From positions 1,426,001 through 1,490,000 of the forward strand of contig WION01000003.1 in the NCBI GenBank assembly GCA_015039365.1: DNA of 64,000 nucleotides, given 5' to 3'. Numbering within the stretch: the stretch's first letter is position 1; each line of letters starts with the position of its first letter. This DNA comes from Amanita rubescens. Its lineage: Eukaryota; Basidiomycota; Agaricomycetes; Agaricales; Amanitaceae. Both the position numbers and the translations under genes were made by a program. Positions 17,941-57,698 of the stretch are shown here, piece by piece. The notes below the pieces were generated by a model. It made no database searches, was not told the origin of the DNA, and saw only the letters and a program-made list of their open reading frames with translations.

Positions 17941-17948
17941 TTGCGTCC

Positions 17949-19116: not shown

Positions 19117-19396
19117 GATGCCGACGATGCCAATACTAGTGGCGGCCCGGGAGAGACAAGGGGGACATCGCCGACGACGGGGACGACGATGACCGGCGTG
19201 CTCACGTGGCTTGTTCCTTATATAGAAGTGGCGCGGGCGCGGGCAAGGGAAGGGAGGATATTGTGCCCAAAGTCAAACCTGGCTACAGTAGGTTTATCGA
19301 GCAGTACGGGAATATTGAGAATGTGATGCAAAAAAGCGTGGGACTAGCTAAATTAGGAACGTGCTAATTAGTACCAATTAGCTGGCTGTACAGGTG
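19117..19396 (-). repeat. right terminal inverted repeat
   Basis: Partner of 17949-18185. Includes the phrase ATTGGCATCGTCGGCAT shared at the inner end after a gap. Confidence 0.85.
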
Positions 19397-19404
19397 TTGC
19401 GTCC

Positions 19405-19737
19405 TTTGAGTCCTGCGATTGCGTCTTACTGCAGTTTTTAGTCCTTTCTGCGATTCACTGCGTTCTAGAAGTTCGAGTTTCTTCATTTAGCTGCGATTTC
19501 GATTATCTTAGGTTCCCCTCCTTGCCACACTCATCCTCTACTGCTTATTCGATCAAATACTACTTTACGAGGCGTCTGAGAAGTCTCCTGGACTCGCAAA
19601 ACAAAAGCGAACTTCGACCGTCGTTCAATCCTCTTCGATCCCTTCTTTTACCTTCGGTTCCCTGCACTAAGAGGGTGCCACTGCACTTCAGGTGTTTGTT
19701 GGGTTTGGTTTGTGGTTGAGTGCGCTCACTGCGTATC
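19405..19737. other. non-coding spacer before the truncated chromovirus
   Basis: No gene supported. Contains scattered TGCG(A/T)T phrases (19414-19470), resembling the sequence just left of the transposon at about 17930, so the insertion site was in a locally repetitive stretch. Confidence 0.35.
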
Positions 19738-23302: not shown

Positions 23303-23430
23303 CTTTTTTGCACTTCTGCAAGTGCAGAGCAATATTCGAAACAAGAAACATTTCAACACGAAAACTACCAACACAACCCCCTTTTCTCAACCCTCTCATA
23401 AACAAATAACCAACACATTCTATTGATGTG

Positions 23431-25579
23431 ATGGCGTCAGGAGCCAGCAAAAAAAAGCCCAAGCTCCATGCCACCTCGAACTCACCAACGACGTCTGCCG
23501 GGAGCTCGCCCTTAATGATACAACGTTCGGCCAGCATCACGAACTTAGGTAATCCCGCTAGCACGTGGGATACCAGCAAGGTCACTACGAGAGCAGTGAG
23601 CACGTCTCACGCCGCGTCCCATGCCAAAGCCGCGGCGATTCAGTCACAATCGCCCAAAGGGAAAGGACGAGTCGTGGGGACAATTCCTTTGTCCCCTCCA
23701 ACGCATAACGCCCCGGAACCGCCTACAATCAGTCCCAGACAATACGGTTTAAACCTCGAACCCGATAATACCCGAACGACGGCAAACATCAGACAAGCGA
23801 TAAGTCTGAACTCGCCGCCATTCCAAGAAATGGCACAACTATCACCATTAGATATACAGCCCTCAATGGTCACACGTACGGAAGGCTATGAGTCGATAAG
23901 TGAAGAACGGGAAGTAGCAGAACTTGCTTCCCCCGCAAAAGAAGACGCATAAGCCGGCTTGTACAGACGGCGTGATGACTCCCGACTCGAATACGTGTCA
24001 CAAACGCAAAGGCCTGCCGGACTCGGGTTCCCACAAACCGGTCGTCGACTGGGGGAACCCTCACCCTACAGTACTCAATTCTACCCTTACTCGCGACCAG
24101 GAGATGCTACCAACAAGAGACTTGAGGAAACTCAAGTTTCCATATTGGAGGAACAGAAAGCGAATAGGGAACAGCTCTCACAAATTACTCACGGAATAAA
24201 TCAAAGCAACGCCTTGCTAGCGGATTTGGTCGCCGAATTCAAACGCGACAGGAGATCACAATCATCGGGATCTTACAGAGGAAGATCCCCCAACCCGAGA
24301 CGAGTCTCTCTGTCCCCGTTAAACGAAGCTGAGGGACAAGATGATGAGAACGAGAGCCAACCGGCCACCGCTCATCAACAAAACGAGGAGGAGAACGAAG
24401 CGAACGAATTTCCCCACCTAATCAGATCCGGGGAAATGGACGCCCTCATTCAGTTGAAAGTATTGGAATACAAAAGAGACGCAAGCAACGGGTCCCGACT
24501 TATCGCACACAGGAGAGGCAATCGAGAAACCTCTCCAGACTACAAAACCCGGCTATATATCTCAGCCAGAAACTACATTCTGACGGAATTACGTTCAGGC
24601 GCCAACACGAGCGCGCTATTCGAAAAATTGTCTCCGCTACGGAGACAAGCCAGGTTCGAAGACACACGCTACAATGCAAGAGCTACGGGCTCTAACGCTA
24701 TACCCATACGCTCTGAAAGGAGAGTAAACGAACCCTCCGAGAATACCCCGAGACAAGAACAAGTGTCACACCACACTGTTCCATCGCCTTCAAGCTCAGG
24801 ACACAGAAGCTCGAACGCATCCCATCAGAACTCGCCAATACGAAGGGAACCGCCGCTCAGCTACGTCTCCAAGAGGCTGAGGCCCAGCATGTCTATCAGT
24901 CACGTCGGAGGGCTTTCTGAATCAAGCCCTCCTACAACATTAAACAAGTCATCGGAAAGGACCGACAGTATTGTTCGACAGGAAATACAAGATGCATACA
25001 TGGCAAGCCAATACAGATCGGACAAAATCAATATAGGGAAGATGATGAAAATACCCCTTCCCGAGTATTCCGGAGGAGAATCTATCGACTCATTCTTGCG
25101 ATTCCTCCGCAAAATACTCCTATATCTCGTGAACTACAACGTCATGGGGCCGGATGATGACGCATCTAGAGTCGGCATCCTAGGATCTACGCTGAAAGAC
25201 AGAGCGCTAAAATGGTACCAACATACCATCCATCTTAATGCGGATGGATCCTGGACGTTTGAGACGGCCATGATTGAGCTCAAAAGATACTTCGTCAAGG
25301 AGGCTTCATCCCGTGACGCGGCCTCCAAATTCGACCGCTTAGAACAAGGCAGTAAAACCGTTATGGAATTACGCAAGGACCTGGAGAGATTGAGCCAGCA
25401 GATGGTTCAGACTCCAACAGAATATGATATGTCAAGACGATTTGTTGACGCGCTCAACGACGATATAGCAGGGGCTGTCGTGAAAGATGGTATCAACCCT
25501 GTGACGAAGTTGGGTTCTCCTCATCATGGAGTCCAACGCAGCAGCGCAGCGCATGGTACTGAGTAAGGAACCGACTTAC
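23431..25579 (+). pseudogene. gag: chromovirus gag, N-terminal part
   Basis: ATG 23431. Basic Ser/Thr/Pro-rich N-terminus, then an in-frame TAA at 23950-23952, after which the same frame continues. Further on: a charged region, and the gag/capsid-like core (around 24990-25500: F-L-R-F-L-R-K-I-L, L-K-D-R-A-L-K-W-Y-Q, L-K-R-Y-F-V-K). Near 25510 the homologous reading changes frame (V-L-L-I-M-E-S-N-A-A-A-Q-R-M-V). It breaks at 25579 where a foreign LTR is inserted and resumes at 26135. Confidence 0.8.
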
Positions 25580-26131
25580 TGTGAAGGTAGGAGTGTGTGG
25601 GGGACTTTATAGGAGCTAAAGGCTCAACTATAAGATGTGGAGATGAGAGTAAGAAGTTAGGAGGATACGACGAATTGTCCCTCCTTATATATTGTCTGAG
25701 ATACAAATAAGTGTAAACTATGCTATCTACGGACCTTATCCTATTGGATGATAAGGTGTGTATTGTATTACACAGCTATCGTCATATTGACTCATCATAT
25801 GACAATATGTGAGTCATAACGTATCATATGATCTATTCCTAGTCATAATGATTGACAGAAATTATAGGGTTCTGTCATATCTGACATATTGCTGTATGAC
25901 AGATATTATAGAGTTCATTCTTGACAGATTGCTGTAGAATGACGATATATGATTCACAAGGAATCATATCTAGTAACTATGACGCAAGCGTATTCATATC
26001 TACTTAATCTATACTAATGGAGATAGATAAGATCATACTATCTTATCTTCTGATAAGATAAGATAATCTGATAAGATAAGATAATATCTACGATATATTA
26101 TCATTATAATATATAGTTTTATATATTTTCA
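25580..26131. repeat. solo LTR-like insertion in gag
   Basis: Reverse-complement copy of 10221-10742. Bounded by TGTGAAGG and ATTTTCA. Flanks TTAC and TCAC differ at one base; collapsing them rejoins gag in frame, supporting a 4-bp target duplication. Contains one extra GATAAGATAAGATAA unit relative to the other copy (26055-26090). Confidence 0.65.
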
Positions 26132-27536
26132 TCACCCTGAAAAGAGCCCTTTCGAAACGATCTTTGAAAAGGCCAACGAAGTAGAACAGGGCCTGTTCTA
26201 CGAAGGTCGACAAATTCGCCATAAAAGACCAAAACAGCCGGACAGGAGCTCTGTAAAGACGAGCTCCAAGCATACTATAAAGAAGGCCGGCACCAGTTCT
26301 AGGCCGAACGCGTACAAGACCCCACAGACGGGGAAAAAGGATTATAAGCCACCCGGAAGCACGTCTAAACAGATTGAGTGCTTCCATTGTAAACAAAAGG
26401 GACACTACAGCAACGCATGCCCGAAAAAGGACAATCGCTTCAAACGAGCAGCAAATGTCGAAACAATTGAGGAAGATAACGACGAAGTTACTGCGAACGC
26501 TGCTGAAGGGACACTCTCCGACCCCCAGCACGAGGATGCTACCTCGGGAGACGAAGAGGAAGAAGAACGGTCAGAGGAATCGTCCCATGAACAGTACGAA
26601 GACGATGAAGATCCCTCATTGAACGATTGGGCGGCAGAAGCGTTCGCATCTGTATTAGTCTCCACTCATACTGAAAGTAACGGAGACTATTTAAACCCGA
26701 AGAATTCACGAAGAATAGACGGGACCAAATTGACAGATTGGTCCCAAGCGGAGAACACGGTTGAAACCGAGCAGGAGAGTGACACGCTCTCCGAGATACA
26801 TTATGATTCCAACGTCATAGACACAGCATGTGTCATACGATGCGTGGACGACAACGAAGACGAAGTTGCCAAATGTATGAAAGCGTCTGGGATAAATGAC
26901 GAGCCAGTCGCGTACAGACAACGGGGAACGAAAGACCTCGGACCAGTCAAAGTTGAAGACGGTCCAAAAAGGGATTTCAAATGCCTCGGCGTCATCGAAG
27001 GCTTTATTCGTATCAACGGACATAAAGCCCACGTTCTACTGGATGGCGGAAGCACGATCGACATGATCTCCGCCAACTTCGCCAAAGTCCATCAGCTGGA
27101 CGTATTCCAGCTAAAAAAGCCCATCAAATTACAAATGGCAACATCGGGTTCGCGCTCCTCTATACAATACGGAGCGCGTGCAAACCTGAAGTTAGGCGAC
27201 CTCAGCCAAAGCAGGTACTTCGACATCATCAACCTGGATCGATACCACGCCATACTTGGTACCCCGTTCTTGAAGGAACATGAAGTCTTGCTCAATTACG
27301 CCGGAGACGGATCCTTCAAATTAAAAGACAGATGGTTCCCCGTCAAAGACGGCGACTTCGGGAACCCTCTTTCTTTAGAAGGGGAGAAAGCGGAGAAAAC
27401 TGCTTATAAGAAAAAAGACATAACATACAAGAAGAAGGAGTCGTCAGACACTAAGACTCCGAGCAGGAAGCCAACGGTCAACAAAGTTTCGGCCTCAAAT
27501 GACAAGGCGTCAAAGCGCGGTAAACGCACTGAATGA
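26132..27536 (+). CDS. gag: chromovirus gag C-terminus and protease
   Basis: Open in frame from 26135 to TGA 27534-27536. Zinc knuckle C-F-H-C-K-Q-K-G-H-Y-S-N-A-C (CX2CX4HX4C) at about 26380, then a long acidic spacer. The retroviral-type protease follows, with V-L-L-D-G-G-S-T-I-D-M (D-G-G-S in place of D-S/T-G-A) near 27033-27066 and a downstream I-L-G-T-P-F. The TGA separates it from pol, but the frame continues unchanged beyond it. Confidence 0.85.
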
Positions 27537-29143
27537 CGCCAAAACGCCGAAGACGAAAAAAAGCCCTCCCCTGAAGCAGGCGCTAAGGGAGGGAAAACCT
27601 TCCATATATCCATGGAAGAACGTCTGAGGCTGCGCCAAAAATGGGTCGACAAGATCCAAGATTTATATACCCCTCGGGAGCCAGCTTTGCCTCCCTTACG
27701 ACCAATTAACCACGAGATCCCGTTAATCAACCCGAATCTCAGAATCATACATAGGGCACCCAAATGTCCTGAAGCCCTCAGAGAAGAGCTTAGAGCGAAA
27801 GTCGACAAATATATAAAGGCGGGTTGGTGGGTCCCCACAACCCTTCCCTCGTCAGCGCCGCTCTTAGTCGTCTTTAAAAAAGACGGGAAGATACGAACGG
27901 TAGTGGATGCCCAACAGCGCAACGACAACACGCTGGCAGATATTACCACATTACCGGACCAAGAAACGGTTCGAAGTGATATCGCAAAAGCCCGTTTCAG
28001 AACGAAGATAGATCTATCGGACGCGTTTGAACAAATACGCGTCCTCCCGGATCATGTGGATCGTACCGTATTCGCGACAATATATGGTAACATGAAAAGC
28101 CTAGTAATGCAACAGGGAGACAAGAATGCACCTCCCACCTTCCAAAAGTTAATGAACCACTCTTTCTCGGACATGATAGCAGTATTCGTACACTGCTATC
28201 AAGACGACATCTTCATATTCTCAGATACTCTGGAGGAACACGAAGAACACCTCCAAAGAGTATTCGATCGATTAAGAGAACTCAAGCTATATCTCAGCAG
28301 TAATGCCAAGAAATTGGATCTCTTCTCGACGTGGATGGACTGCTTAGGATTCTATGTAAGCGACAACGGAATCCATATAGATCCGGCAAAGATAGACAAG
28401 ATACGGGAGTGGAGAACTCCCAGAAACTATCACGACGTTCAGAGATTTAACGGCGTTATCCAGTATCTCGCCCAATTCCTACCCAACGTCACAGATTACA
28501 CGTCCCCCATGTCTGGGATGTGTAGTAACAACAGGGAATTCGTTTGGACGGACTTCCAGGACGAATGCTTTCAAACACTCAAGAATCTTGTTTGCAAAAA
28601 CCCCGTATGCAAACCCATCAATGGCAGAATCGACACGCCTATCTTCGTGATCACCGACGCATCTGCTACAGGCATAGGCGGTATGTACGGCCAAGGACCA
28701 ACTTGGGACACAGTCAGACCAGCTGGTTTTGTGTCCCGTAAATTTACATCTGCGCAGATGAACTACTGCACCTGGGAACAAGAACTACTCGCTGTTCTTG
28801 AAGCGCTTATGCGCTGGGAAGACAAATTGCTCGGTCTTCCCTTCACGATCGTGACAGATCATCAAGCACTCACGTTCTTCCAAGAAGTGCCGACAAAATC
28901 ACACAGAAGAATAAGATGGTGGGAATACCTTTCCCGGTTTAATTTCACAATGAAATATCTAAAGGGAGAAGACAATAAAATTGCAGATGCTCTCTCCCGC
29001 TACTACTCATCAGACGAGCCCGGAGAGATCCACAATATAGCAACATACGTTAATGCAGACGCCAGATTAGATCCGGAAGGCGACGATTTGACGATGGCTC
29101 GCAACGCCGAGCTTAGCGCCTTCCAAGTCAATGTTCTTCCCGG
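27537..29143 (+). CDS. pol: chromovirus reverse transcriptase and RNase H
   Basis: Same frame as gag-protease, first Met 27612. RT motifs in order: L-V-V-F-K-K-D-G-K-I-R-T-V-V-D, K-I-D-L-S-D-A-F-E-Q-I-R-V, Q-Q-G-D-K-N-A-P-P-T-F-Q, the catalytic C-Y-Q-D-D-I-F-I-F (about 28195), and G-F-Y-V-S-D-N-G-I. RNase H follows with F-V-I-T-D-A-S-A-T-G-I-G-G, E-Q-E-L-L-A-V-L-E-A and I-V-T-D-H-Q-A-L. Active-site residues look intact. The coding run is split at 29143 by a solo LTR. Confidence 0.9.
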
Positions 29144-29541
29144 TGAAACGATCAGAAGAAGGCCGATGCGGAAGTGCGTTCGGCCAAAGGGGCTTCGGAG
29201 GTCAGTCCTGGGGGTGCCTTGGAGGCAGAGAGGGTGCCGAATGCGAAGGTGAACAAGTGGAAGGTGTCCGAAGCACCGAGGAACAAAGGGAACGAAAGGA
29301 ATCGAACTCAGAGCAGTAATGGGGTGATAATTCGCTAACTACAACTATGTACACAATGGTATATATACTACGGAGGCACGAGGTGACCATGTGATGAATC
29401 CTGCACCGAGTCCGAGGGTCTGTGCATGCATCCGAACTCAAACGATCATCCTCCGGGGTCGAGTATAGGCTCGGAGTGCTTCGGGGAGCTTCGGAAGGTT
29501 TCGGAGATCGGTTCCAACGTAGCCGGAATCGGCTCGTTACA
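29144..29541. repeat. solo LTR (398-bp family) inserted in pol, 4-bp target duplication
   Basis: TGAAACGATC...CTCGTTACA, matching 1637-2033. Flanked by CCGG on both sides (29140-29143 and 29542-29545). Removing the LTR plus one CCGG (402 bases) rejoins the pol frame at a V-L-P-G-E reading. Confidence 0.9.
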
Positions 29542-31151
29542 CCGGGGAGGAAAGGGAAGAAGCTATCAGAGATCACGTCGAACAGAGAATCAACGACTCT
29601 CATCAGTTGTCTCTACATAAAGAATTGGAGACCGTACAGTCTCCTGACCTGAATCTCAAGGACGACAACGTTCAAACCGTCCTTCAAAATATCCCAAAAA
29701 TGTACGAATACGACAAATTCTTCTCGAACATCTGGAAACACTCGGACCGACATGAAAGGTTCAAGATACATAAAGAACTTCTCTGGACAGTCAACCGAGC
29801 GGGATACAAAGTAGTATGCATCCCAGGAGGGCTGATAAAGGGAAAGTCAACACGAGGTCTAATCGTAGATGCCTGTCATCAAACGATAGGTCACCTAGGT
29901 CTGAGCAAAACCCTCGAATACGTCCGACGCTGGTTCTGGTGGCCGAATATCAAAGAAGATGTAGAAGGATTCTGCAGTTCATGCGGAAAATGTCAAGTCA
30001 CCAAAGTATCACGATTGAAATCACCAGGATGGGTACATACGATGCCAATCCCTACAAGACCTTGGGAAAGCATCGGAATGGACTTCACTGGCCCTTTTGT
30101 CGAGATCGGAGGATACGACTATATCCTCCTAGTAATCTGCCGAATGACAGGAATGGTCCACCTCATCCCTACCCGAACCAACACGTCGGCAAAAGACATC
30201 GCCAGACTATTCATAAAAGAAGTCGTCAGGCTCCACAGTATACCGGAGTCTGTCGTCTCTGATCGCGACACGAAATTCACCTCACAGTTCTGGAGTGAAC
30301 TCAGCAAAACGTTAGGACAGAGACTATTGATGTCGATGTCTTATCATCCTCAGACGGACGGCTCTTCGGAACGAGCTATCCAAACTATGTCCCAAATCCT
30401 CCGTGCTGTCGTAAACGACTATCAAACCAATTGGGTTGAACAACTCCCATTGGTTGAATTCGCCATGAACTCGGCTACAAGCGCTTCTACAGGACAAGCT
30501 CCTTTCGAATCCAATTACGGATGGATGCCCCGTATGATCAAGGGGGTCAATTATGACTCCCCACGCGAAGGCGTCCGACAATTCGCAGATAACATACGAG
30601 ACGTTCTGGACAAGACGTTCGACAAGCTAGTCGTTCAACGTACACGACAAGCGATTAAGGCTAATAAAAAACGACGCGAGGGACAACACTTCGAGACAGA
30701 TGACCTGGTCCTCCTATCCACGGAGAACCTAAACTTGCCCAAAGGCCGCACGAGAAAGCTCTGCCCCAAATTTATAGGGCCTTACAAAATCCTCAAGGCT
30801 TTCCCGGAGAGCTCAACTTACAAGCTAGAGCTTTCCCCAGATCTCAAAGCTCGACGCATTCACAATACTTTCCACGAGAAAGTATTAAAGCCTTACATCG
30901 GGAACGATCAGAATAAGTTCCCTAAACGCGAAACACGCGTTCAATACGATATTGGAGACGACCCAGACCGAGAATGGGTCGTCGAAGCGATAGAAGACCA
31001 CAAATGGTCTCCTCGTCTTACGTTCAAAGTGCGTTGGGCGTTGGGAGATTTCACGTGGGAGCCTCTACATGTCGTCAATGAGCTCGAAGCTCTAGATCAA
31101 TATCTAGAGCTCGAAGGGGTTACTACGCCCTCCGAGCTCAGAAAAGATTGA
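29542..31151 (+). CDS. pol: chromovirus integrase and chromodomain
   Basis: Continues the pol frame after the solo LTR. Zinc domain H...H-L-G-L-S...C-S-S-C-G-K-C, core with D in G-M-D-F-T-G, D in V-S-D-R-D-T-K-F and E in G-S-S-E-R-A-I. C-terminal GPY/F-type region (F-I-G-P-Y-K-I) and a chromodomain near the end: E-W-V-V-E-A-I-E-D-H, F-K-V-R-W-A-L-G, F-T-W-E-P-L-H-V. Catalytic residues are present. Ends TGA at 31149-31151. Confidence 0.9.
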
Positions 31152-31241
31152 CATCTACAGGGGTGGCTGTGTACTTTAGGACTGGCCTTTCAGTCACCCC
31201 ACAAATTCCCACGAGCCAGATTTTCATTGCCAACCATCATC

Positions 31242-32789
31242 ATGTCTGAACAACACGAACAACGCACGAACTACGAATCGGGGAAAGAAGAATCCAGCCA
31301 CAAGCGGATTCGCTCTCCCCAGCCACAATATCATGACACCGGGAGAGACGAACGCCGTCTGCGTATGAGTCACTCTCCCTCATCCTCATCCAATCAAGCG
31401 TCAGCTGCTATATCATCCGGAAGATCCACATCTTCCCAATTCCTCTTAAACGCGGCCGACATCTTCTCTGAAATGCGCCCGGAATGGCAGATCGAGCCCA
31501 AGTCCCACCTCCCTCTGCATCTCTCGAATTGCAGTGACTGTGCCCACTTTGCACATCACGTTAGAAACGAGACATCGGGAGGCGCACTAGAAATTTTCAA
31601 TCAAAAGCAACGACATCACTGGCGCGAAGTCTTAGACAAAGAAATAGAGGATCGCTGCCTCGAGGCGTACCGACGTGGTCTGAAGGACAACGACGACGAA
31701 ATATCGAAGCTAAAAAGCGAGCTCAACAAATATCGCAAACAGCTCGAAGACTTGGAAAAAGGGATGAACGACCAGGAGCGCCGAAACAACACGCTCCAAG
31801 CCCCGTATCGACATGGAGGGTCCCAGAGGCCCTCCGCCTCTTTTGAAAGGGGAGGATCCCGCTCGTTGCCAGCGGAAAGAACAAGATCCCCTTCACCAAA
31901 ACGCCATCAACTACCTGCGCCAATCGCATTGTCATCAAAAAGACAGCTCACTCCGCCGCCACAAGATATGGCCATCGACGTAAAGCCAAACCCAATTGCA
32001 GCCGCTACCAAAGGAAAGGAGCGCACCAGGCCTCTTCGTCGCATGTACATGTCGGATGAAGAGGATGACGACGACGTATCGATCCACAGCGGTAGTATGG
32101 ATCATATCGGAGGCGATAAATACTCGCCTCCCCATTCAGATGCCGAAGAAGAGGAAGAGCTAGGCCTGTCAAGTATATACATCGAGGACCCGGCTCCGTT
32201 CCGTCTCCATATAAAATCGGAAAGCTACCAGAGCAGACACGGACACGCATGCGTAGAGCTGCGAGGCACCCATTGGAACACAACCAGCCATAAGTTGTTT
32301 AGAAAACGAGAGGCAAACAAAGGCTACCGATGGATGTGGAATAGCGGCTTCCCTATGCAGATGGCCTGGGAAGCCTCGCTAGTCCCCTTTGATCAACGAT
32401 CACTCGCGCAACGATGGACAGTCCAAGAAGCTACCCGAGATGGATTCCTACCGATAGGCGACGCCAGCGAAGAACCGGACATCGAGCGCCTAGCAAAGAA
32501 CGGGCTCTTGCCAGTTTATATACGACAAGGAAACGGCAATCGCCTCAATGTCAAGGACGTCACCGCCTGGCTCCTTTTCAAAATGACGGAGCCAGAAGAG
32601 ACAGACATAACCGAATGGTTCTGGTGGATGTCGTGCAAGATATTCAGTGAATTCGGGCAGTACGCAAGTGAACTGACCACGCTTGGTCTTAGGGACGACA
32701 ATCACGCACTAATCCCCAAACGTCTCGTTCAGAACGGAGAGCCAACGCAGGAAGACCTCATCAGACACTTCAAGTTATGCGGTGTCTGA
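31242..32789 (+). CDS. extra ORF between chromodomain and 3' LTR
   Basis: 515 codons from ATG 31242, stop TGA. Ser/Arg-rich N-terminus, then N-C-S-D-C-A-H-F-A-H-H (possible metal site), a coiled coil around residues 130-175 (L-K-S-E-L-N-K-Y-R-K-Q-L-E-D-L-E-K), Ser/Pro/Arg-rich and acidic stretches, and a more globular Trp-rich C-terminal 170 residues (W-M-W-N-S-G-F, T-E-W-F-W-W-M-S-C-K). No signal peptide or membrane segment. Sits where env would be in a retrovirus but has no env features. Unrelated by eye to the extra ORF of the other family. Function unknown. Confidence 0.65.
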   Translation: MSEQHEQRTNYESGKEESSHKRIRSPQPQYHDTGRDERRLRMSHSPSSSSNQASAAISSGRSTSSQFLLNAADIFSEMRPEWQIEPKSHLPLHLSNCSDCAHFAHHVRNETSGGALEIFNQKQRHHWREVLDKEIEDRCLEAYRRGLKDNDDEISKLKSELNKYRKQLEDLEKGMNDQERRNNTLQAPYRHGGSQRPSASFERGGSRSLPAERTRSPSPKRHQLPAPIALSSKRQLTPPPQDMAIDVKPNPIAAATKGKERTRPLRRMYMSDEEDDDDVSIHSGSMDHIGGDKYSPPHSDAEEEEELGLSSIYIEDPAPFRLHIKSESYQSRHGHACVELRGTHWNTTSHKLFRKREANKGYRWMWNSGFPMQMAWEASLVPFDQRSLAQRWTVQEATRDGFLPIGDASEEPDIERLAKNGLLPVYIRQGNGNRLNVKDVTAWLLFKMTEPEETDITEWFWWMSCKIFSEFGQYASELTTLGLRDDNHALIPKRLVQNGEPTQEDLIRHFKLCGV

Positions 32790-33223: not shown

Positions 33224-33523
33224 TGTAACGGACCGTTCGGAGGTTACCTACTAGAAGATACCAATGTACGGGAGCTACGTTTAGCTCCCACATCCTTTCC
33301 TTGTAGATAGTTTCTTTCTCTCGTATATAGTTCCCATTTACGGACCGTTACGCTACTTACTATACACGTCAGTCACAGTAGTCACAGGCTCATACTCACT
33401 TCACCTGTACACACCATACGCGCACCCTGCACGGTCTCTAAATAGACGCAGATCCAGTGCACAGCTGCAAGGTGTGATCAGTAAAGAACCATTCATTGGT
33501 TCTTCTCAAGTGAAATCGTTACA
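33224..33523 (+). repeat. 3' LTR of the chromovirus
   Basis: TGTAACGG...ATCGTTACA, 300 bp against 297 bp for the 5' LTR; three substitutions and three single-base indels by direct comparison. Confidence 0.9.
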
Positions 33524-33756
33524 GTTATGGTCAGTGGCATATTTTGTGATTGTTTTATCACAAAAGGTTTAGCCACAAGTCTCTACATGGAAGTCAAGGG
33601 TTTTACTCATATTGTCAAACTTTCAAATACAAATGAAAAACTCAGTCTCTAATCATACAGTAGAAGTAAATTACAAAAATAAATGGAATGAAAGAAAAGG
33701 CATGCTAGGAGTTGTGGGGAATGTCAGAATGGACCAAAAATCAAGGGAATGTGCAT

Positions 33757-36700
33757 ACTATATCTGCTGAATTGACACATGCAGTCTTTTAGGTGAGAGG
33801 GGGAGTGCAATCCAACTTGGAATGTTGCACAAAATTGTCTGTAGAATATTTTAATGACAACAGGAAACAGATAGAAGAATTAAAAACAGCACCAAAGTAC
33901 TTCAAAGACAAGTAATTGGTAAATGTTAGTATGCTATGTATAGAACAAAGAGGATACATACATGCTAGCAAATTCCCAATTTGAATTTTGCATCAATAAA
34001 AATTGAAATGAGGAGTAACAAACTGACATCCTAAAGGAAAAAAGATGAGAAAGTTCTGCACTGCACTGCAGATGAAGAACCATACAATCTGAAAATGAAG
34101 TCAAAAAATAACATTAATTCAGTTATTAAGCATAAAAGAGTAAAGAAACATACCAACTAAGTTTAGTAGACAATAGTAGAGTTAGCATACAAATCAGAGA
34201 TAGAAAAGATGTATTACATATACCTCCTGACAAAAGAAAGAGTAAAGATTTGAATTTAAATTAGTTAAAAAATCCACTAACCTTCTGATAACATTAATAA
34301 ACAATGTTAGCATAATTTGAATGTAAATGTAAAAAAGTAACATGCCCACTACAAATTTTGAGTGCTGAAGCACAGGTGTAAAGGAATGAACAAAAGTACA
34401 TACATTCTGATTTATGAGAAGAGGGACATTAGCAAATGTCCCAACAAATAAAAAGTGACATACATTCTATATACAAATATGTATGATTAAAATTTTTTTT
34501 TTTGAGTCTAAGAAAACAACTTACAAACTAAGTACCAGCAAAGGGTCACAAAATTATCACTTTTGAAGAGATTCTGCACATATCAAGCTGAATGACTTAC
34601 TGTCTGAACACAGCCACAAAATCATCACCAAGAGGTTCTGCACAATGTCAAGCTAATTGACTTACTGTCTGAACACAGCCAGATGCCACAAAATCATCAC
34701 CAAGAGGTTCTGCACAATGTCAAGCTAATTGACTTACTCTCTGAACACAGCCAGATGCCACAAAATCATCACCAAGAGGTTCTGCACATGTCAACCTGAA
34801 TCACTTACTCTCTGAACACAGCCAGATGCCACAAAATCATCACCAAGAGGTTCTGCACATGTCAACCTGAATCACTTACATCCTGAACACAGCCAGATGC
34901 CAAAAAATCATCACCAAGAGGTTCTGCACATGTCAACCTGAATCACTTACATACTGAACACAGCCAGATGCCACAAAATCATCACCAAGAGGTTCTGCAC
35001 ATGTCAACCTGAATCACTTACACCCTGAACACAGCCAGATGCCACAAAATCATCACCAAGAGGTTCTGCACATGTCAACCTGAATCACTTACATACTGAA
35101 CACAGCCAGATGCCACAAAATCATCACCAAGAGGTTCTGCACATGTCAACCTGAATCACTTACTCTCTGAATACAGCCAGATGCCACAAAATCATCACCA
35201 AGAGGTTCTGCACATGTCAACCTGAATCACTTACATACTGAACACAGCCAGATGCCACAAAATCATCACCAAGAGGTTCTGCACATGTCAACCTGAATCA
35301 CTTACTCTCTGAACACAGCCAGATGCCAAAAAATCATCACCAAGAGTTCTTTCATCACCAAGAGGTTCTGCACATGTCAACCTGAATGACTTACTCTCTG
35401 AACACAGCCAGATGCCACAAAATCATCACCAAGAGGTTCTGCACATGTCAACCTGAATCACTTACATACTGAACACAGCCAGATGCCACAAAATCATCAC
35501 CAAGAGGTTCTGCACATGTCAACCTGAATCACTTACATACTGAACACAGCCAGATGCCACAAAACCATCACCAAGAGGTTCTGCACATGTCAACCTGAAT
35601 CACTTACAAGCTGAACACAGCCAGATGCCACAAAATCATCACCAAGAGGTTCTGCACATGTCAACCTGAATCACTTACTTCCTGAACACAGCCAGATGCC
35701 ACAAAATCATCACCAAGAGGTTCTGCACATGTCAACCTGAATCACTTACTTCCTGAACACAGCCAGATGCCACAAAATCATCACCAAGAGGTTCTGCACA
35801 TGTCAACCTGAATCACTTACATACTGAACACAGCCAGATGCCACAAAATCATCACCAAGAGGTTCTGCACATGTCAACCTGAATCACTTGCATACTGAAC
35901 ACAGCCAGATGCCACAAAATCATCACCAAGAGGTTCTGCACATGTCAACCTGAATCACTTACATACTGAACACAGCCAGATGCCACAAAATCATCACCAA
36001 GAGGTTCTGCACATGTCAACCTGAATCACTTACTTCCTGAACACAGCCAGATGCCACAAAATCATCACCAAGAGGTTCTGCACATGTCAACCTGAATCAC
36101 TTACTTCCTGAACACAGCCAGATGCCACAAAATCATCACCAAGAGGTTCTGCACATGTCAACCTGAATCACTTACATACTGAACACAGCCAGATGCCACA
36201 AAATCATCACCAAGAGGTTCTGCACATGTCAACCTGAATCACTTACTCTCTGAACACAGCCAGATGCCATAAAATCATCACCAAGAGGTTCTGCACATGT
36301 CAACCTGAATGACTTACTGTCTGAACACAGCCACAAAATCATCACCAAGAGGTTCTGCACATGTCAACCTGAATCACTTACTTCCTGAACACAGCCAGAT
36401 GCCACAAAATCATCACCAAGAGGTTCTGCACATGTCAACCTGAATCACTTACATACTGAACACAGCCAGATGCCACAAAATCATCACCAAGAGGTTCTGC
36501 ACATGTCAACCTGAATCACTTACTCTCTGAACACAGCCAGATGCCACAAAATCATCACCAAGAGGTTCTGCACATGTCAACCTGAATGACTTACTGTCTG
36601 AACACAGCCACAAAATCATCACCAAGAGGTTCTGCACATGTCAACCTGAATCACTTACTTCCTGAACACAGCCAGATGCCACAAAATCATCACCAAGAGG

Positions 36701-39327
36701 TTCTGCACATGTCAACCTGAATCACTTACATACTGAACACAGCCAGATGCCACAAAATCATCACCAAGAGGTTCTGCACATGTCAACTTGAATCACTTAC
36801 ATACTGAACACAGCCAGATGCCACAAAATCATCACCAAGAGGTTCTGCACATGTCAACTTGAATCACTTACATACTGAACACAGCCAGATGCCACAAAAT
36901 CATCACCAAGAGGTTCTGCACATGTCAACTTGAATCACTTACATCCTGAACACAGCCAGATGCCAAAAAATCATCACCAAGAGGTTCTGCACATGTCAAC
37001 CTGAATCACTTACTCTCTGAACACAGCCAGATGTCACAAAACCGTTACCAAGAGGTTCTGCACATGTCAACCTGAATCACTTACAAGTTGCTGTACACAG
37101 ATTGTTGCCACAAAGTGATAATCAGAATATTATGTTCATGTTTGAAAGTACCACTTACCAACTAAGACATTTTGTGATCAATACCACCATCTACTAGTTA
37201 TCAAACATGTAAAACAAAGCAACTTACTTTCTAATGATACAGTAATGAAATACAAAATATCAGTTAGCAATATATTTGGTTTTTGATTTTGCACAAATAT
37301 TACATTCTAGAACAGCAATTATTAATAGATTTTGACAATTATATGAACAAATTCAACTTGCTTACATTCTAGAGATAATTGCTTGAGAAATGCTGCTTTG
37401 CTATAGAAAGATTGACAAAATACACACCAGCTGATATTTATTCAGGCACAAGATAGTCAACTTGAGCCACAATGTTATATCGAGCTACATACATTCTAAG
37501 CAGAGTAACACAGTTATTTTCCTTCTATTATGTTTCATAAGGGATTATTCACCTTAGAAATCTCCAATATTTGATTCATACTCTCTGTAACAACTTTCCA
37601 CTCTCTTTGCAGTGGCTTGATTGACAAGCTTGAGCACATATTCCAATAGTGGTTTAAATACAACTTGCCTGTAACTGTTTAAGAACAGAATCACAACCTT
37701 GACAAAAAGTCTTTAATCCATCTTCCAGCCCATACATCCAAGTTTTTAACCACTCTCTGCTCAACTTCACCATTAACACCTCTATGTTTGCACAGTTCTT
37801 CATCAAATCAATTGTTGCCTGATGTGAAAGTGCCAAAGAGAAGTGATAATACCATTGTTGACATGCATATTTCAGAGGCTGAACACCATGGTTTGAGTCA
37901 TGCACCTGCCCAATCAACTGCAAGCAGTTGGCCAGAATGGTAACATGGTACATCTTGGGGTCAAGAAAATGAACCTTTGCTCTGTTCATATCACTAAGAA
38001 AATCTTTCAATGATGCATGATATGGGCAAACTGATTCCTCTTCAGTGTTGGGAAGGACAAAAATAGATTGGCAACCCTGTAATGCTTGTCGAATATGGTC
38101 AGATGATAGCTGTAGAAGTTGCTCCAGGTCATGTATGGCAAGAGGGTGGTGGAGATATATGATGGTACCCACTACACTGGAAAAGTGAGCAGACTCAGCT
38201 TGAGCTTTTGATAAAACCTGCTCATATAGAGGATCAACACCATGATGTGCTGTTATAGCTAACTCAAGCTTCTCCTGGGGAAGCCCTTGCCTATCACCCA
38301 CAAATTTGACCAGGGTTGACACATAGATGAATAAACCCTCTGATTTCTGGACAAGAGCAACAAGCTGTTCTGCTGATGGCCAAGGATGGGGTACTTTTTG
38401 CATGATGTTGTAATTTTGCCTGTGTATTTCTGTAAGATGCTGCTTCAAGTAGTTGCTGACATCATGATGAGCCTGAAAGTCTCGAAGTGAGAGGAAGTCT
38501 GCCTTTGGTTTGATCAAAGGGGATTCAAATGTTTGTCGGATATAAGATTCAGGCCGACTTGCAAAGAGAAATCGGAATGGAAGGTAATAGGTCGCATCAA
38601 CAAGTGCATGAATGAGCTGCGGTAGGAGATTCTCGTCACTACATTCATCAAGGCCATCAATAATGACAACCATGGGCAGGGTGGCCTGCTGAATGCTAAG
38701 AGTGGGATTGATGATGAGATTTTCGAGCTGATCGTGCAAGCGGAGAAAAGGAGCGAATGGATTACTCTTTGTGAGCACATGCAGCAAAGGTGATTGAATT
38801 GCGGGAAGGGATCGAGCAAGCTGATACGCAAATGTGGGGATGACTTTAGCCGTATCGCTGCGATCAGCTTTGCCTCTTGAAAAGAAAAAGCTGAATGCGA
38901 GCCGCCCCTCATCGTCACATTGCTTCGCGATGGTATGCAAGATTGTCGACTTCCCTGAGCCGGCAGGTCCCTCGAGCCAACACACTGGGTATCCATCACT
39001 AGCTTTGGACCACCACATGAGCTTCGACAAAACCATTTCGCGAGTACCCTCTTGACAGGTTGATGCATGTTCTGACTCGCGTTCTGCAGAATTATAGGCG
39101 GCGTGAATAGCAATTTGATTCGAGTCCTTCAAGATATCAAAGACAGTCCCTGTATCTATGTGGTCACGACCCGGTAGCTACGAGTAGGAAGCAAACAGCG
39201 CACGAGTGCTCCCATAATGCACTGGCATGTTCAAGTTGCCAGTAATAAGGCCGTAATTATTGATCTGATTACCCCCAACATCGGTGAACTGGCTGCCGGA
39301 GATATTGATGTTTCCGGCGCTAGACAT
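33757..39327 (-). CDS. NACHT NLR-like gene with a three-base microexon array
   Basis: STAND-type P-loop NTPase gene. The first exon begins at ATG 39327: M-S-S-A-G-N-I-N-I-S-G-S-Q-F-T-D-V, a start typical of Agaricomycete NACHT proteins. It joins the main exon through an intron whose ends I cannot fix; a donor at G|GTAATC with an acceptor CACATAG near 39161 keeps phase. The main exon (about 39160-37666) carries the NACHT domain. It would leave at CAG|GCAAGT (GC donor) near 37667, just before an in-frame TAA. A short exon ending AAG|GTGAAT at 37553 follows, then the array 37495-33962. A phase-0 terminal exon from about 33838 to a TAG near 33757 is plausible. Fungal NLRs act in non-self recognition and cell death. 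Confidence 0.65.
33962..37495 (-). repeat. array of 52 candidate microexons (51 of three bases) between GT/GC-AG introns
   Basis: On the minus strand every unit reads acceptor AG, three bases, donor GT(A/G/C/T)NGT. Starts of the three bases by codon. TAT: 34951, 35093, 35235, 35466, 35537, 35821, 35892, 35963, 36176, 36453, 36730, 36801, 36872. AGA: 34738, 34809, 35164, 35306, 35395, 36247, 36524, 37014. GAA: 35679, 35750, 36034, 36105, 36382, 36659. ACA: 34601, 34666, 36318, 36595. GAT: 34028, 34880, 36943. GGT 35022, CTT 35608. Flanks: AAT 37493, 37366, 37304, 34464, 34404; CTG 37428; AAA 37228; TTG 37159, 34154; TTT 34525; TGG 34346; AAG 34282; GAG 34224; ATT 34086; CAT 33962; a six-base CAACTT at 37085. 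The core from 34.6 to 37.09 kb is a 71-bp tandem repeat; the flanking introns are unrelated. Splicing is inferred. Confidence 0.8.
37654..39132 (-). CDS. NACHT domain exon
   Basis: Open frame of about 490 codons. Conserved segment A-Y-N-S-A-E-R-E-S-E-H-A-S-T-C-Q-E-G-T-R before the domain, Walker A G-P-A-G-S-G-K-S (38955-38980 region), Walker B V-V-I-I-D-G-L-D-E-C, sensor-like F-A-S-R-P-E, then a helical winged-helix-like region ending Q-L-Q. The order is the usual one for fungal NACHT proteins. No effector domain was seen upstream and no ANK, WD40 or TPR repeats follow; the microexon array takes that place. Confidence 0.85.
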   Translation of the reverse strand: MKDSNQIAIHAAYNSAERESEHASTCQEGTREMVLSKLMWWSKASDGYPVCWLEGPAGSGKSTILHTIAKQCDDEGRLAFSFFFSRGKADRSDTAKVIPTFAYQLARSLPAIQSPLLHVLTKSNPFAPFLRLHDQLENLIINPTLSIQQATLPMVVIIDGLDECSDENLLPQLIHALVDATYYLPFRFLFASRPESYIRQTFESPLIKPKADFLSLRDFQAHHDVSNYLKQHLTEIHRQNYNIMQKVPHPWPSAEQLVALVQKSEGLFIYVSTLVKFVGDRQGLPQEKLELAITAHHGVDPLYEQVLSKAQAESAHFSSVVGTIIYLHHPLAIHDLEQLLQLSSDHIRQALQGCQSIFVLPNTEEESVCPYHASLKDFLSDMNRAKVHFLDPKMYHVTILANCLQLIGQVHDSNHGVQPLKYACQQWYYHFSLALSHQATIDLMKNCANIEVLMVKLSREWLKTWMYGLEDGLKTFCQGCDSVLKQLQASCI

Positions 39328-39338
39328 TCTAGACGAAA

Positions 39339-39873
39339 GAGTATGGTTGTTTCAAGCGTGGTGGAGGTTTAAGGCAAGTCTTATCGATTAGATTTGCATG
39401 ATTCAGCCAAACACTACCAAACATTGCGTGCCGCAATGACCGCAGGACCCGTCTTGTTTGCCTAATCTCAATGCCATGAGTCGTAAGGTCTTCCGTGCAC
39501 AGAAGACACTAACATGCGCTCTCAGACTCTTCCTGCCCCACTTAACCTCTTCACCCTCTCGTAAAAGGCACATTATTTCCCATTCCTCCTCATCATCATC
39601 ATCCGGAGTCGTTCCCAAGGATTGGGGTGGTCCTGACGCGATGGGCGAACGGAGCGGGCGACAAACATCGTGGGCGAGGATCTGGAAAACACAATACGTC
39701 AGCCCATACCGTGGATAAAGGAATAGAAAAAAATCAAACGAAATTCGCGCCTCCTACCTCCCTTTACAGGGCTGGGTTACTTCCGCAGCTCCTCCCGGAT
39801 TTTCCCCGAGATTTCGTCTTCCCAAGCCTTGCTGATATAGTGAAGATGTGGAGGAAACATCGCGTCAAATTAC
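39339..39873. other. upstream flank of the NACHT gene
   Basis: No gene firmly supported. On the minus strand 39790-39850 a short open piece (S-K-A-W-E-D-E-I-S-G-K-I-R-E-E-L) looks coding and could be the last exon of the hypothetical gene starting at 40224. Confidence 0.35.
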
Positions 39874-52390: not shown

Positions 52391-55300
52391 ATGTCTGGGA
52401 AAAAAAATGTTATTGGCTCAATGCTGGGAAAGTTAGCCCAGAAATTTAAGCAGGATTCAGCAAGTGAGGCAGCTCACACACAAACTCATGCTCCTGGCAC
52501 AACACCAGTCATGGCAGCTACAGCTGCTGCACCTTCTTTGAGTAGATTAATTTATGTGTTCAGGATTGCTAATCATTGACTGACACATATCAGATCCAGA
52601 TGACTCGGAGACACATGTTCAAATGCTCAGGGAACGCTATCTATGCTCACACTTTCGCATCCTTGTCATTGGGAGGGCTAATGCAGGCAAGACAACCATC
52701 CTTGAGAAGGTTTGTGGCATAGCAAAGGGGACAAAGCCCATCATATATGATAAAGATGGTAAATCACTCTGAGTTTTGTGCTTCCTTTGACTGTGAGTTT
52801 CTTGCAGGGAATCAGCTTGAACAGTCTGTGATTCATTTGATGCCATCACTTGGGGTGAGTCAGATAATGGTGCAGGGATGTACCCATTCACATGCAATAA
52901 TAACAGAGAGGCCTGCATGATATTTGGCATCAAATTACATACCCTGGAAGTAACTTTGTCTTCCATGATTCACAGGGTTTTGAATCTGGTTCAACTGAGG
53001 AATTGGAGATTGCCTGGAAGTTCATTGAAAAGAAGTCTGCAGAAACTGAGCTGAAGAATCAGTTGCATGCAATTTGGTATCTGGCTTTATCTCTTTACAG
53101 TACTGTCTGACCTAGCATCCTGTAGGTACTGTATACCCATGGACAGCCCTCGTCCCATTCTACCTGCAGAACTTGAATTCTTCAATAAAGGGACAGGCAG
53201 AGGTAAGTCCTAATGAATTCATATCTCATCTTGTAACTTGTTGGTTTTGGAGAGATTGTTTACCCTTAACTACTGTTACCTCCTTTCCATTGGCCAACTT
53301 GCCACAAAATCTACTTGTACTGACTAGTAAATATTTCCTTTACAGTTGCTTTGGTGGTTATATTCACTAAATTTGATGGCCAAATAGCCACTGAATTTGT
53401 CAACTTGCCTGATGCAAAGGATGAAGATAAGTGGGAGAGAGCCAGTGAAATTGCTGAAATCACTTTTCAAAAAGTTTATCTTCCTAAAGTTTTGGATACC
53501 AAATATCCTCCCAAGGCATATGTGCGATTGGAAGGTGAGAGCGATGAGGGTTTATTTCCTCATGAAAATTGGTGTAATATTGTTCCATAGACATGGATTT
53601 ACCAGAAACAAATTGTGCTGAATTAACTCAGCAAACTGCTGATGCAATAGATGATGATAGCATACATCAGCTGTTTGTTTCAACACAGATGAATAATCTT
53701 GACCTTTGTGTTAAATCTGCACTTCAGTGAGGGTTAATTCAACATGTCACTGACTTACTAACATCAACATTGTTCAGACATGTTCTGAAACATAAACATT
53801 GGACATGGGATGATGTCATTCTCATAGTTTTTTCAAAATTTCCACATCTCTGGGTATGCATTTTCTTCAAACTGCACATTAGCATTGGAAAGGTTAAATA
53901 GCAATAGGTGGACAGGGAGGTAGGTGGCCTTATATGGAATGATAAATACTTGTAACAATTTATCAGGAGGTAAGTAATGCTCAAATGCCCTCACATGAGA
54001 ACAAGATTAATCATATTTCAGATGAACAATGAACAACTGAGTGAAACACAGGTGAGTTTTCGCCCTCTTCTTGCTGGCAGGATCTGAAGACATTAATATC
54101 AGTGGGTAAGTGACATTGAACTAGCATAGATCTCACATATCATTTCATGACAACAGTTTGTGAGAAATGCTTCCTTTTGTGATCAGGAATCTTGTCCCTA
54201 CTTGTCCCATGATCTACAGGAAGTGAGTGACATGGTGACTCAATTTTGATTTTTGGTAAATGATCTCATTGTGCATCATATGACAAATAGCAAGTGAGTT
54301 AATTTATCATTGCAAGCAAACTTGTCAATCCAACTTTTCATGGACAGGGAGTGAGTAATATAACACTGCCTCACACCACACTTGACCTGCTTAAAGAAAG
54401 TAAGCAACATTGATGTTTGTGCAGCTTATCAAACATAACTCAATGAACAACAGAAAGTTGGTGACATACTATTATCTGAAAGACAGTCTCAACAAAGTTC
54501 TTTGCATTAATAACAGGAAGTAAGCAACATTTCCTTTCTGTCTGCTTATAATCATTACATCTTGTCTCAAAACAACAGACAGTAAATATTTCTTCTTTTC
54601 AAAGCTTCTTGACAACTTAGTCACAAACTATGGCAAAACAAACAGGATGTATGTGATCCTTTTGTGAGATGTAAATTCATCATATGAAATACTATGTCAA
54701 AAGAGAGTCAGTCACATTGTTTCCTTTGTCCCAACTCAAGAAGCTAATTCCTTTCCAAAAGGAAGTGAGTGATGCCAGCCACTCTGCTACAGGACAAGTT
54801 GGACACATTTGTTGTTCTACAGATTGTGAGTGGTGTTGAAAGTATTGTGAAAAGCAGTGTAAATCACATGTTTTCTGATAATATAGCAGGTTAGCAGCAT
54901 GTCATGCTAGTTTAGTGGTTCAGAAGATGACCTTATCAAAATTTGCCTCTGGCCAACAGTATGTGAGTAACATTGCAAATATTTCTGAGCAACTGTTCTA
55001 TGTATTTCCCTTATCACTGACAGGATGTGAGCTTGAAGATTTTTGTGGAAGGCAGTCACATCACATCTTTTGCTGTTACCAACAGGATGTAGGTGACATT
55101 ACACATTTTGTGACAGGCAGTCTTATCACATCTCTTCATATGACCAACAGTTTGTCAGTGACATTGCACATTTTGTGAAACACAGTCTCATCACATCTTT
55201 TCCTATCACCAACAGTATGTGAGTGACATTGCACATTTTGTGAAATGCAGTCTCATCACACTTTTCCCTATTACCAACAGGAAGTGAGTGACATTGCACA

Positions 55301-57698
55301 TTTTGTGAAATGCAGTATCATCACATCTTTTCCTATTTCCAACAGCGAGTGAGTGACATTACATTTTGTCAAAGACAGTCTCATCACATCTTTTCCTGTC
55401 ACAAACAGAAAGTGAGTGATAATCCACATTTTGTGAAAGGCAGTGTCATCACATTTTTTCTTATCACTAACAGGATGTGAGTGACATTGCACATTTTGTG
55501 AAAGGCTGTCTTATATGACCAACAGGATGTGTGTGACACTGCACATTTTGTGAAAGGCTGTCTCATCACAACTTTCTTATGATCAACAGAAAGTGAGTGA
55601 CATTCAAGTTAGACATTTTGTGAAAGACAGTCTCATCACATCTCTTTGTAACCAACAGGTTGTAAGTGACAATCCACATTTTGTGAAAGGCAGTCTTGTC
55701 ACATCTTTCCAATTACCAACAGTTTGTGAGTGACTTGCACACCCATGAAAGGCAATCTCATCACATCTTTTCCCTATGGCCAACAGGAAGTGCGCAACAT
55801 TGCATATTTTGTGATAGGCAGTCTCATCACATCATTTCTATGACCAACAGCAAGTGAGTGACATTGAACATTTTGTGAAAGGCAGTTTCATCACATCTTT
55901 CCTATTACCAACAGCGAGTAAGTGACATTGCACATTCCATGAAAGGCCCCAGTCTCATCACATATTTTCCCATCATCAACAGCAAGTAAGTGACACTGCA
56001 CATTTTGTGAAAAGCAGTCTCATCACATCTTTTCCTATCACCAACAGCAAGTGAGTGACATTCCACATTTTGTGAATGGCAGTCTCATTGCCTCTTTTCC
56101 TATTACCAACAGCTGGTGAATGACATTGCACATTTTGTGAACTGTAGTCTCATCACATCTTTTCCTTTGACCAACAGCCAGTGAGTGACATTGAACATTT
56201 TGTGAATGGCAGTCTCATCACATCTTTTACTATGACCAACAGCTTGTGAGTGACAATCCACATTTTTTTTAAAGGCAGTCTCATCACATCCCTATCACCA
56301 ACAGATTGTGAGCAACATTGCACATTTTGTGAAAGGCCCCAGTCTCATCACATCTTTTCCTATTACTAACAGAATGTGAGTGACATTGCATGTTTTGTGA
56401 AAGGCAGTCTCATTACATCTTTCCCTACCATCAAAAGAGAGTGAGTGATATTGCACATTTTGTGAAAAGCAATCCCATCACATCTTTTTCCTTTCACCAA
56501 CAGCAAGTGAGTGACATTGCAAATTTTCTGACCTGCACTCTCAGTATACTTCAATTCATGATTGTCTTATGTATACCAGAAAGTAAGCATGTTGCCATAT
56601 CTTTTCCATATCTTCCTTATAAGTTATACACCATTATCATAGATTGTAAGATTTCATTTCAGCTGACCCAGTCCCACCTCATGTAATCACTCCTTTCACT
56701 TATATCACTTTCCTCAATTTTCAGGTGAGTAATGCTTGTTCATGAGGCATTGATGTTCATATCAGTTTGCATGGTAGTGTGTAGGTCTGATGATATGTTG
56801 TTTTACTCTATCTCATAAACCAGTATGAACTTTTCTCCATGTTCGGAGACATCCAAAGCAACTTTCATGTCAAGGTACTTTGTACTTTCCTTTGGGTAGT
56901 ACACGACTGATGGTGTTACAATAAGCCAAGTGATTGTCAGGCCTTAGTTGGTAAACTGTTCCTTTTCATTTACTGTATGTTTGCTTAAAGTTTCAAGCAA
57001 TTATTATCATTGCCAAGCTATCCTTTTGGATCAATAAACCATTTTTGCAATCAGTCACAGAAGCCTTTGATCAATTCAAGCAAAAAGGCTATGTTCAGAA
57101 GCTGAAGACTGATGTTACTCCTGACTTTATGCACTCTGATCATCAAGATTTGATCACATTACTCTACTGGCAGGTGACTCACATTGATGGTAGGTACTTT
57201 GTCTAGTCATGGACTACTTGTGAATCATTTATTTGAAACACCCAGCATGATATTCAGGTGATCTATTGGCTGTATAGCCTTTGCATTGAGCTCAGATCTA
57301 TTTATACATAGATCACTTCTCATATGCCTTCCTTTGGTTATTCACTCAAATTTTCTTTCTAATCTAGACACATAGTATGTGTATGTTGTTGGCAATACAT
57401 GCAGGGACAGGTTGAAGGGCATGAAACAGAGCAAATAAATTTTGTAAATTCTAGCAGGCTATTGGCATTATCACATGGGCTACCTAAGTCAAAGTGTGAC
57501 AGGGATGTGGTGAATGGAAGAAAAGGGAAGCTTGAATCAGACCACCCAGACACTTTCACAAGCATGGCCAATTTGGCATTGACATACAGGAATCAGGGAA
57601 GGTGGGATGAGGCACAGAAGCTTGATGTAACAAATGCAACAGAAACAACAGACCACCCAGATGATCTTACCAGTATGACCAATTTAGCATCAAGGTGA
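52391..57698 (+). CDS. P-loop GTPase gene with a three-base microexon array and TPR-like tail
   Basis: Exons in phase: 52391-52541, 52594-52758, 52808-52854, 52907-53076, 53126-53202, 53346-53534, 53591-53726, 53778-53853. Then comes the microexon array 53967-56645, followed by 56824-56874, 56991-57173 and about 57405-57690. G1 is G-R-A-N-A-G-K-T-T, with D-S-Q-G-F-E-S-G for G3 and T-K-F-D for G4. The segment H-A-I-W-Y-C-I-P-M-D-S-P-R-P is typical of the large Agaricomycete GTPase family. After the array come a hydrophobic segment (F-Q-A-I-I-I-I-A-K-L-S-F-W) and a TPR-like unit (H-P-D-T-F-T-S-M-A-N-L-A-L-T-Y-R-N-Q-G-R-W-D-E-A). The last exon probably continues at AAG|GTGAGA near 57696, so the C-terminus is open. 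Function unknown; STAND/NLR-like layout inferred. Confidence 0.75.
53967..56645 (+). repeat. array of 42 candidate three-base microexons plus one 30-base exon
   Basis: Each unit reads acceptor AG (mostly CAACAG), three bases, donor GTNNGN. Starts by codon. GAG 53967; TGG 54103; TTT 54157, 55151, 55723; GAA 54220, 54517, 54762, 55281, 55787; CAA 54291, 55851, 55983, 56048, 56504; GGA 54348; AAA 54397, 54454, 55409, 55590, 56580; ACA 54579; GAT 54646, 55024, 55086, 55474, 55526; AGA 54704, 56438; ATT 54823, 56305, 56643; CAG 54887; TAT 54960, 55216; CGA 55346, 55915; GTT 55659; CTG 56113; CCA 56178; CTT 56243; AAT 56373. A 30-base exon lies at 54022-54051. From about 54963 the introns belong to one family (GTGAGTGACATTGCACATTT...CAACAG, about 55-70 bases). 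Before that they are unrelated. The exon before the array ends in phase 0. Confidence 0.8.

Follow-up and report, generated by a model that had tools for sequence, protein, structure and literature searches.

Arrays of candidate one-codon exons in a NACHT gene and a GTPase gene family of Amanita rubescens

The window analysed here, a stretch of 64,000 nucleotides from Amanita rubescens, carries two genes in which units of three bases recur between an acceptor AG and a splice donor. The first gene lies on the minus strand and encodes a NACHT domain. Its parts are given below in the order of the gene.

37669..39327, minus strand: NACHT-encoding main exon (list of open reading frames, Pfam, tblastn)
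37553..37615, minus strand: 21-codon exon PLQREWKVVTESMNQILEISK, placed after the NACHT exon and before the array (sequence)
37085..37495, minus strand: seven proximal units whose introns are not repeated, reading N L N N K L, with a six-base unit QL (unit list)
34601..37016, minus strand: 35 tandem units of 71-base period with the hypervariable codons RDYYYETRYETRYEEYYYEELYYRRYRYGYDRRTT (TRF, codon list, per-site diversity)
33962..34527, minus strand: nine distal units whose introns are not repeated, reading F N N K E L I D H (unit list)
33758..33838, minus strand: putative last exon TILCNIPSWIALPLSPKRLHVSIQQI and stop, the weakest part of the gene model (from the sequence)

The open frame of the main exon (37654-39177), which overruns slightly into the next intron, matched the Pfam families NACHT (PF05729, 50.2 bits against a cut-off of 26.7) and NPHP3_N, and tblastn with P0001 matched the gene at 37657-39327. 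The Pfam scan covered this 507-residue NACHT frame, in which no ankyrin family and no WD, ANK or TPR repeats were found; the array tail occupies that place. According to our reading, the intron preceding the 21-codon exon has a GC donor. The residues of PLQREWKVVTESMNQILEISK are also present in the public models P0241-P0243, where the upstream side is joined differently. An open frame with a stop at the place of the putative last exon is also found in L040, a region of contig C321, with about 700 bases inserted in the intron before it.

The array was counted at 51 units, in agreement with the figure of about 51 in an earlier note on this DNA. Fifty are of three bases and one is of six, which gives 52 codons with no stop codon among them. 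The proximal units read, in order, AAT CTG AAT AAT AAA TTG and the six-base CAACTT (37495-37085), and the distal units TTT AAT AAT AAG GAG TTG ATT GAT CAT (34527-33962). One donor is GC and the remainder are GT, and some of the flanking donors match the consensus weakly. The array is periodic as described earlier, but not everywhere within the proposed 55-75 bases: the steps of the tandem part are 64-89 bases, and one distal intron has 119 bases. The 16 flanking units (seven proximal and nine distal) keep the AG-NNN-GT rule without repeated introns. The units look like phase-0 one-codon exons, the gain or skipping of which keeps the frame, as had been suggested. An Rfam search of 33500-39600 gave no match, nor did a genome search with the array peptide as a single piece, which had no positive control. 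Large retrotransposon-like open frames (integrase- or reverse-transcriptase-like by eye) are located at 5027-10233, 11345-21489 and 23410-32789, and one such element lies directly downstream of the NACHT gene.

The second gene is on the plus strand and consists of the following parts.

52393..53850, plus strand: GTPase domain exons (sequence; start codon and exon borders by reading)
53908..56645, plus strand: second one-codon array (unit list, TRF at 55041-56531, splice model)
56979..57188, plus strand: C-terminal domain exon, downstream of the second array (tblastn with the C-terminal parts of P0166, P0167 and P0184, E 4.7e-17)

The GTPase domain was matched by tblastn at 52611-53853. Of 39 aligned relatives, 35 matched Pfam MMR_HSR1 at E<=0.01, with P0166 itself below the curated cut-off, and a PDB sequence search with P0166 gave no match. 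The array opens with a short exon, VDRE, followed by E and by a probable 30-base exon, MNNEQLSETQ, after which the one-codon exons read W F E Q G K K E T D R E I Q Y D D F Y E R K D D K V F E Q R Q Q L P L I N R Q K I. The introns are unlike those of the NACHT array; the three-base spacing rule still holds. Beyond the GTPase gene, some 20 kb from the NACHT gene, there is a long open frame of tetratricopeptide repeats at 58804-61104 on the minus strand, for which TPR_10 is the best match and which is built of a strong 378-base tandem repeat (TRF).

The pattern YAGNNNGTRNGT occurs 74 times in the window, counting both arrays, where 100 shuffles gave 5.67 on average and 13 at most. When the spacing was scanned from 0 to 30, the window gave 74 matches at 3 bases and 1-10 at each other spacing, and in 30 loci, selected through one pattern, a spacing of 3 was seen 714 times and each other spacing 2-33 times. 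In the genome of 75.7 Mb, 4428 adjacent AG-NNN-GT pairs were found, and none with the reversed-pattern control; a spacer of 4 gave six pairs, a spacer of 5 none, and a spacer of 6 ten, with eight in its control. By shuffles, spacing scan and genome-wide count, the recurrence of AG, three bases and GT (or, once, GC) reported in the earlier note is beyond chance.

The NACHT array of that note is real, but the feature is not confined to one NACHT gene: thousands of units are present genome-wide, and the arrays that were placed on genes are mostly in a GTPase family. Twenty regions were compared, consisting of 19 fetched GTPase-class regions and the window; they derive from the hits of one pattern and are not a random sample, and one of them, L039, is a copy of the window GTPase gene. 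In 13 of these, the array is preceded by a GTPase domain and followed by a C-terminal domain, all on one strand; six have one of the two flanking domains (several are cut by the region end), and one (L053) has neither rightly placed. The family gave at least 285 exon-level matches from 107 scored candidates, a count that includes doubled regions, and many regions of the genome are seemingly present twice.

Both genes of the window occur a second time on contig C321, as an allele or a duplicate. Between the window GTPase array and this copy, the introns differ at 106 of 2420 sites, the codons at 2 of 116, and the GT and AG dinucleotides at 0 of 155. In the NACHT copy, the proximal and distal codons are identical to those of the window, and the residue order of the array is different (YYDDDDDDDYYYFYGRRRFFRRYYDTTTTTT); its per-site diversity is 0.003 for introns versus 0.66, 0.65 and 0.46 for the three codon bases. 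The residue list leaves out three consecutive four-base units, TAAT AGAT ATAT (L040:3806-4092, corresponding to C321:99806-100092). Together the three make twelve bases and the frame is kept; the first reads TAA in frame, and the copy may end early if all three are used. They are a real exception, a compensated insertion or an assembly error. AG-to-GT lengths other than multiples of three, which the earlier note named as counting against its reading when seen in related strains, thus occur at three units of one copy. They are a rare exception: the whole genome has six four-base pairs, those of this copy included, versus 4428 three-base pairs.

The contrast between codons and introns was measured within each array. 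In the NACHT array, 29 introns are 68 bases long and comprise 8 distinct sequences; their per-site diversity averages 0.010, while the codon bases reach 0.68, 0.56 and 0.50. In an all-pairs comparison of the 23 distal units of the window GTPase array, the mismatch was 14.6% in introns and 64.7% in codons. Beyond the proximal motif, the introns of the repeat units are 85-99% alike and the codon bases differ about as random. Outside the linker, the proteins P0166 and P0169 hardly differ, but the middle parts of their linkers (79 and 62 residues) have little in common. The idea that distal introns are orthologous in register between paralogues was rejected, since a shifted control was equal (window against C13, 0.789 in register and as much as 0.797 out of it); the distal units form a single repeat family, and the comparison was recast as all-pairs divergence.

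Divergence of this kind could also come from a targeted process acting on the three bases that separate AG from GT and rewriting them, instead of selection on rare ordinary mutations; this concerns the motor only and leaves the anatomy of the arrays as it is. The random-like codons of the distal units, compared with their introns, fit such a process, and multi-base codon changes are common. The proximal codons, however, are conserved in the same splice context, and selection is the simpler explanation; we regard the targeted process as unlikely. In our reading, the NACHT and GTPase arrays are hypervariable tails or linkers of NTPases, which change one residue at a time.

Whether the codons behave as coding sequence was judged from 997 predicted one-codon units. 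The splice model favours three-base exons (997 of 1044), and some of its loci are close copies of one another; it missed the window NACHT array, and the L039 copy was left out. Among the 997 units there are 3 stop codons, against 60.9 expected from position-wise base composition. TAA and TGA codons would create a donor overlapping the acceptor, and NGT codons are scarce (19 against 76.9 expected), as splicing would favour. The view that stops are avoided purely as a by-product of splicing was nevertheless not accepted: TAT also makes an acceptor-overlapping donor, yet it is common.

The CpG test is independent of this argument. The array introns contain 69 CpG in 64,148. The observed/expected ratio is 0.026 in array introns (for a slightly different intron set), 0.10 in 52401-53850 and 0.87 in the whole window, and the depletion in the first two looks like the result of long-standing methylation and deamination. 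Where the loss of CpG is silent, it has gone nearly to completion: NCG codons number 0 of 997 against 13.4 expected, and a C in third position is very rare (4 of 997 units) because it always makes a CpG with the G of the donor. Four ordinary exons of the window GTPase follow the same rule, with a third-base C in 0 of 72 codons before G and in 32 elsewhere. On the other hand, arginine CGN codons were kept, in 26 of 997 units against 42.3 expected (compared with introns, p=2.5e-25).

The residues themselves recur as well. The proximal motif of the window, EWFEQGKKETDREIQYD (counting two weak-donor units), is found at unlinked loci, and in a relaxed scan the array starts read EWFEQGKETDREIYD in the window, EWFEKGKLTDREIYD in C13, EWFEQGKKTDREIYD in C46 and EWFEQGKKTDREIYE in C56. 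Comparison of the 13 window motif introns with the latter three arrays gave 39 comparisons, in 26 of which the best match was at the corresponding unit, including three where the aligned place has another residue or a misread exon. Of the other 13, seven matched best elsewhere (five of them in C13) and six were unscorable from intron length. Taken together, the array codons behave as translated residues.

Protein search found GTPase relatives that continue without a break across the array position. P0121, from a contig of 1446 bases, reads KWFEKGKKESDREIEYD there, where the window array has E W F E Q G K K E T D R E I Q Y D; 17 positions align without a gap and 13 are identical (score 81, shuffle maximum 53). 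The unit list of the window, including both weak units, was fixed before this comparison. P0129 scored 87 against the C46 array (shuffle maximum 56), and P0167 and P0169 exceeded their shuffles narrowly (63 versus 61, and 52 versus 51). In total, 4 of 13 linkers beat all 200 shuffles and nine did not: the score of P0135 was reached by 1 of 200, and P0131, P0166, P0182, P0184, P0208, P0227, P0233 and P0239 did not stand out. In P0166, P0167 and P0169 the uninterrupted linker is located between the same two protein domains that flank the arrays. P0121 and the other uninterrupted relatives are probably spliced transcripts of other fungi, because in our reading they also cross the ordinary-intron places of the window gene in an uninterrupted frame. 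For the NACHT array, a search with residues 430-600 found no such transcript-like protein and returned four A. rubescens models only, three of which handle the repeat inconsistently. One, P0241, reads QL, then YYDDDDDDD as single residues, then longer repeat pieces.

From the unit structure, the coding constraint, the transcript-like GTPase homologues and the hypervariability, we infer that in A. rubescens the arrays are phase-0 one-codon exons that are spliced in and translated, with a probability of roughly 0.86. The short introns would be removed between the codons, giving a transcript with about 52 codons after the NACHT exons. Removal is probably stepwise, as each intron excised would leave the next donor three bases past the junction. 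The predicted spliced products are NLNNKLQL-RDYYY... for the NACHT gene and WFEQGKKETDREIQYD for the GTPase gene, that is, a hypervariable tail in NACHT genes and a linker between the GTPase and C-terminal domains in the GTPase family.

Three other accounts of the arrays were considered. The rhythm might be a duplication by-product of a minisatellite within one long intron or 3' region, where nothing is spliced. The 71-base array is indeed a strong tandem repeat (TRF), and the public model P0206 predicts array-free joins for a GTPase paralogue; but the 16 flanking units and the second array hold the spacing without a common repeat, thousands of units exist elsewhere in the genome, and neither the coding constraint on stops and CpG nor a homologous protein passing through the array place would be expected, so that we consider this account very improbable. 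Recursive splicing is known from animals, and the units could likewise be stepping points for the removal of a long intron, their three bases being mostly skipped or irrelevant. Eleven zero-length units in the splice model, which may be model errors, agree with this. Irrelevant bases, however, would not preserve a residue motif between loci, retain the CpGs of arginine codons, be poor in stops or agree with homologous proteins at one residue after another, and there is little chance that the units are such stepping points. The least probable account has exons begin at an inner AG (AACCTCTTGGTGATG...), as in P0241-P0243, which translate such pieces (NLLVMILWHLAVF, PLGDDFVASGCVQ): by our reading it needs 27-base introns and 44-base exons with a frame shift at every step and a third-frame stop, it is inapplicable to the second array and the flanking units, whose sole common feature is AG-NNN-GT, and P0241 itself, after QL, gives YYDDDDDDD as single residues.

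If the arrays are one-codon exons, the unit of change would be one intron plus one codon, the introns providing homology before splicing discards them. Unequal crossing-over or conversion between units would add, drop or reorder single residues, and the frame would stay intact because each DNA unit consists of one intron and one codon.

Codon-sized microexon arrays in fungal NACHT genes are already known, and the opinion of the earlier note that no gene of such architecture had been described is not supported. Alternative splicing of tens of codon-sized microexons in the NACHT-ankyrin (nank) family of Tuber melanosporum is attributed to Iotti et al. 2012 in passages of later articles (PMC4986451, PMC10197012, PMC3689799). 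As far as those passages describe them, these too are fungal NACHT genes with tens of 3-bp microexons, for which a role in diversification was proposed. The window NACHT gene shares with them the NACHT domain and, at the DNA level, the tens of codon-sized exons; the GTPase gene does not have the NACHT domain. The Tuber host is an ascomycete, whereas A. rubescens is a basidiomycete; ankyrin is named there, and none was found in the NACHT open frame here. The present arrays are mostly in a GTPase family, with thousands of units genome-wide, and their introns are nearly identical while the codons vary. Alternative splicing of the microexons was shown in Tuber according to the same passages, whereas the units here are known at the DNA level.

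Micro-exon genes of schistosomes also contain runs of very small exons, in multiples of three, which can be skipped without loss of frame. These exons are mostly longer than one codon, and the products are secreted, with a signal peptide. The likeness lies in small exons in multiples of three, seen here in DNA; the difference is that there is one codon per exon here and that the genes encode NTPases. Fungal NLR proteins carry hypervariable positions inside their repeats. Fungal NLR genes with internally conserved WD, ANK or TPR repeats were described by Dyrka et al. 2014 (PMC4986451). The window NACHT gene resembles that description in its central NACHT NTPase, followed by a C-terminal part that near-identical repeats would encode; but the conserved part of the repeat is protein there and intron here, where the variable position alone would reach the protein. 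Little work has characterised fungal microexons, and a functional small exon is known from Xlr2 of Trichoderma virens (PMC11121469); it is a single regulated microexon and not an array. In the open-licence literature, no report was found of one-codon arrays in Amanita or in any GTPase family. Within that literature, the basidiomycete host, the GTPase family, the scale and the measured contrast between codons and introns appear to be new.

Non-self recognition is a natural guess for the function of fungal NACHT proteins, and we give about even chances to the idea that the repeated units make up a rapidly evolving surface used for recognition by immune-type NTPases. A broader proposal, which we hold tentatively and at slightly less than even odds, is that parts of a large GTPase family and of several NACHT genes have been turned into residue-by-residue cassettes, where the introns serve as homology for reshuffling and either selection or a targeted process drives the codon to saturation, making a genome-wide generator of single-residue diversity. 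If true, the arrays would stand at an extreme of gene fragmentation and would offer a natural test of the smallest exon that the spliceosome can join repeatedly. The introns would be a built-in yardstick beside each variable codon, from which selection on the presumed recognition surface could be read directly.

The divergent GTPase-NACHT neighbourhood recurs on C321 (near 84 kb and 96 kb) and on C557 (near 180 kb and 192 kb), as if it had been duplicated as a block. Many Amanita models of the GTPase family stop at or shortly before the array start, which suggests that the public models of the NACHT and GTPase families are cut short. Among the public models of this family from other genera (P0220-P0240; Jaapia, Hebeloma, Mycena and others), several likewise end close to where the Amanita array starts, and one-codon arrays may be present in those genera as well.
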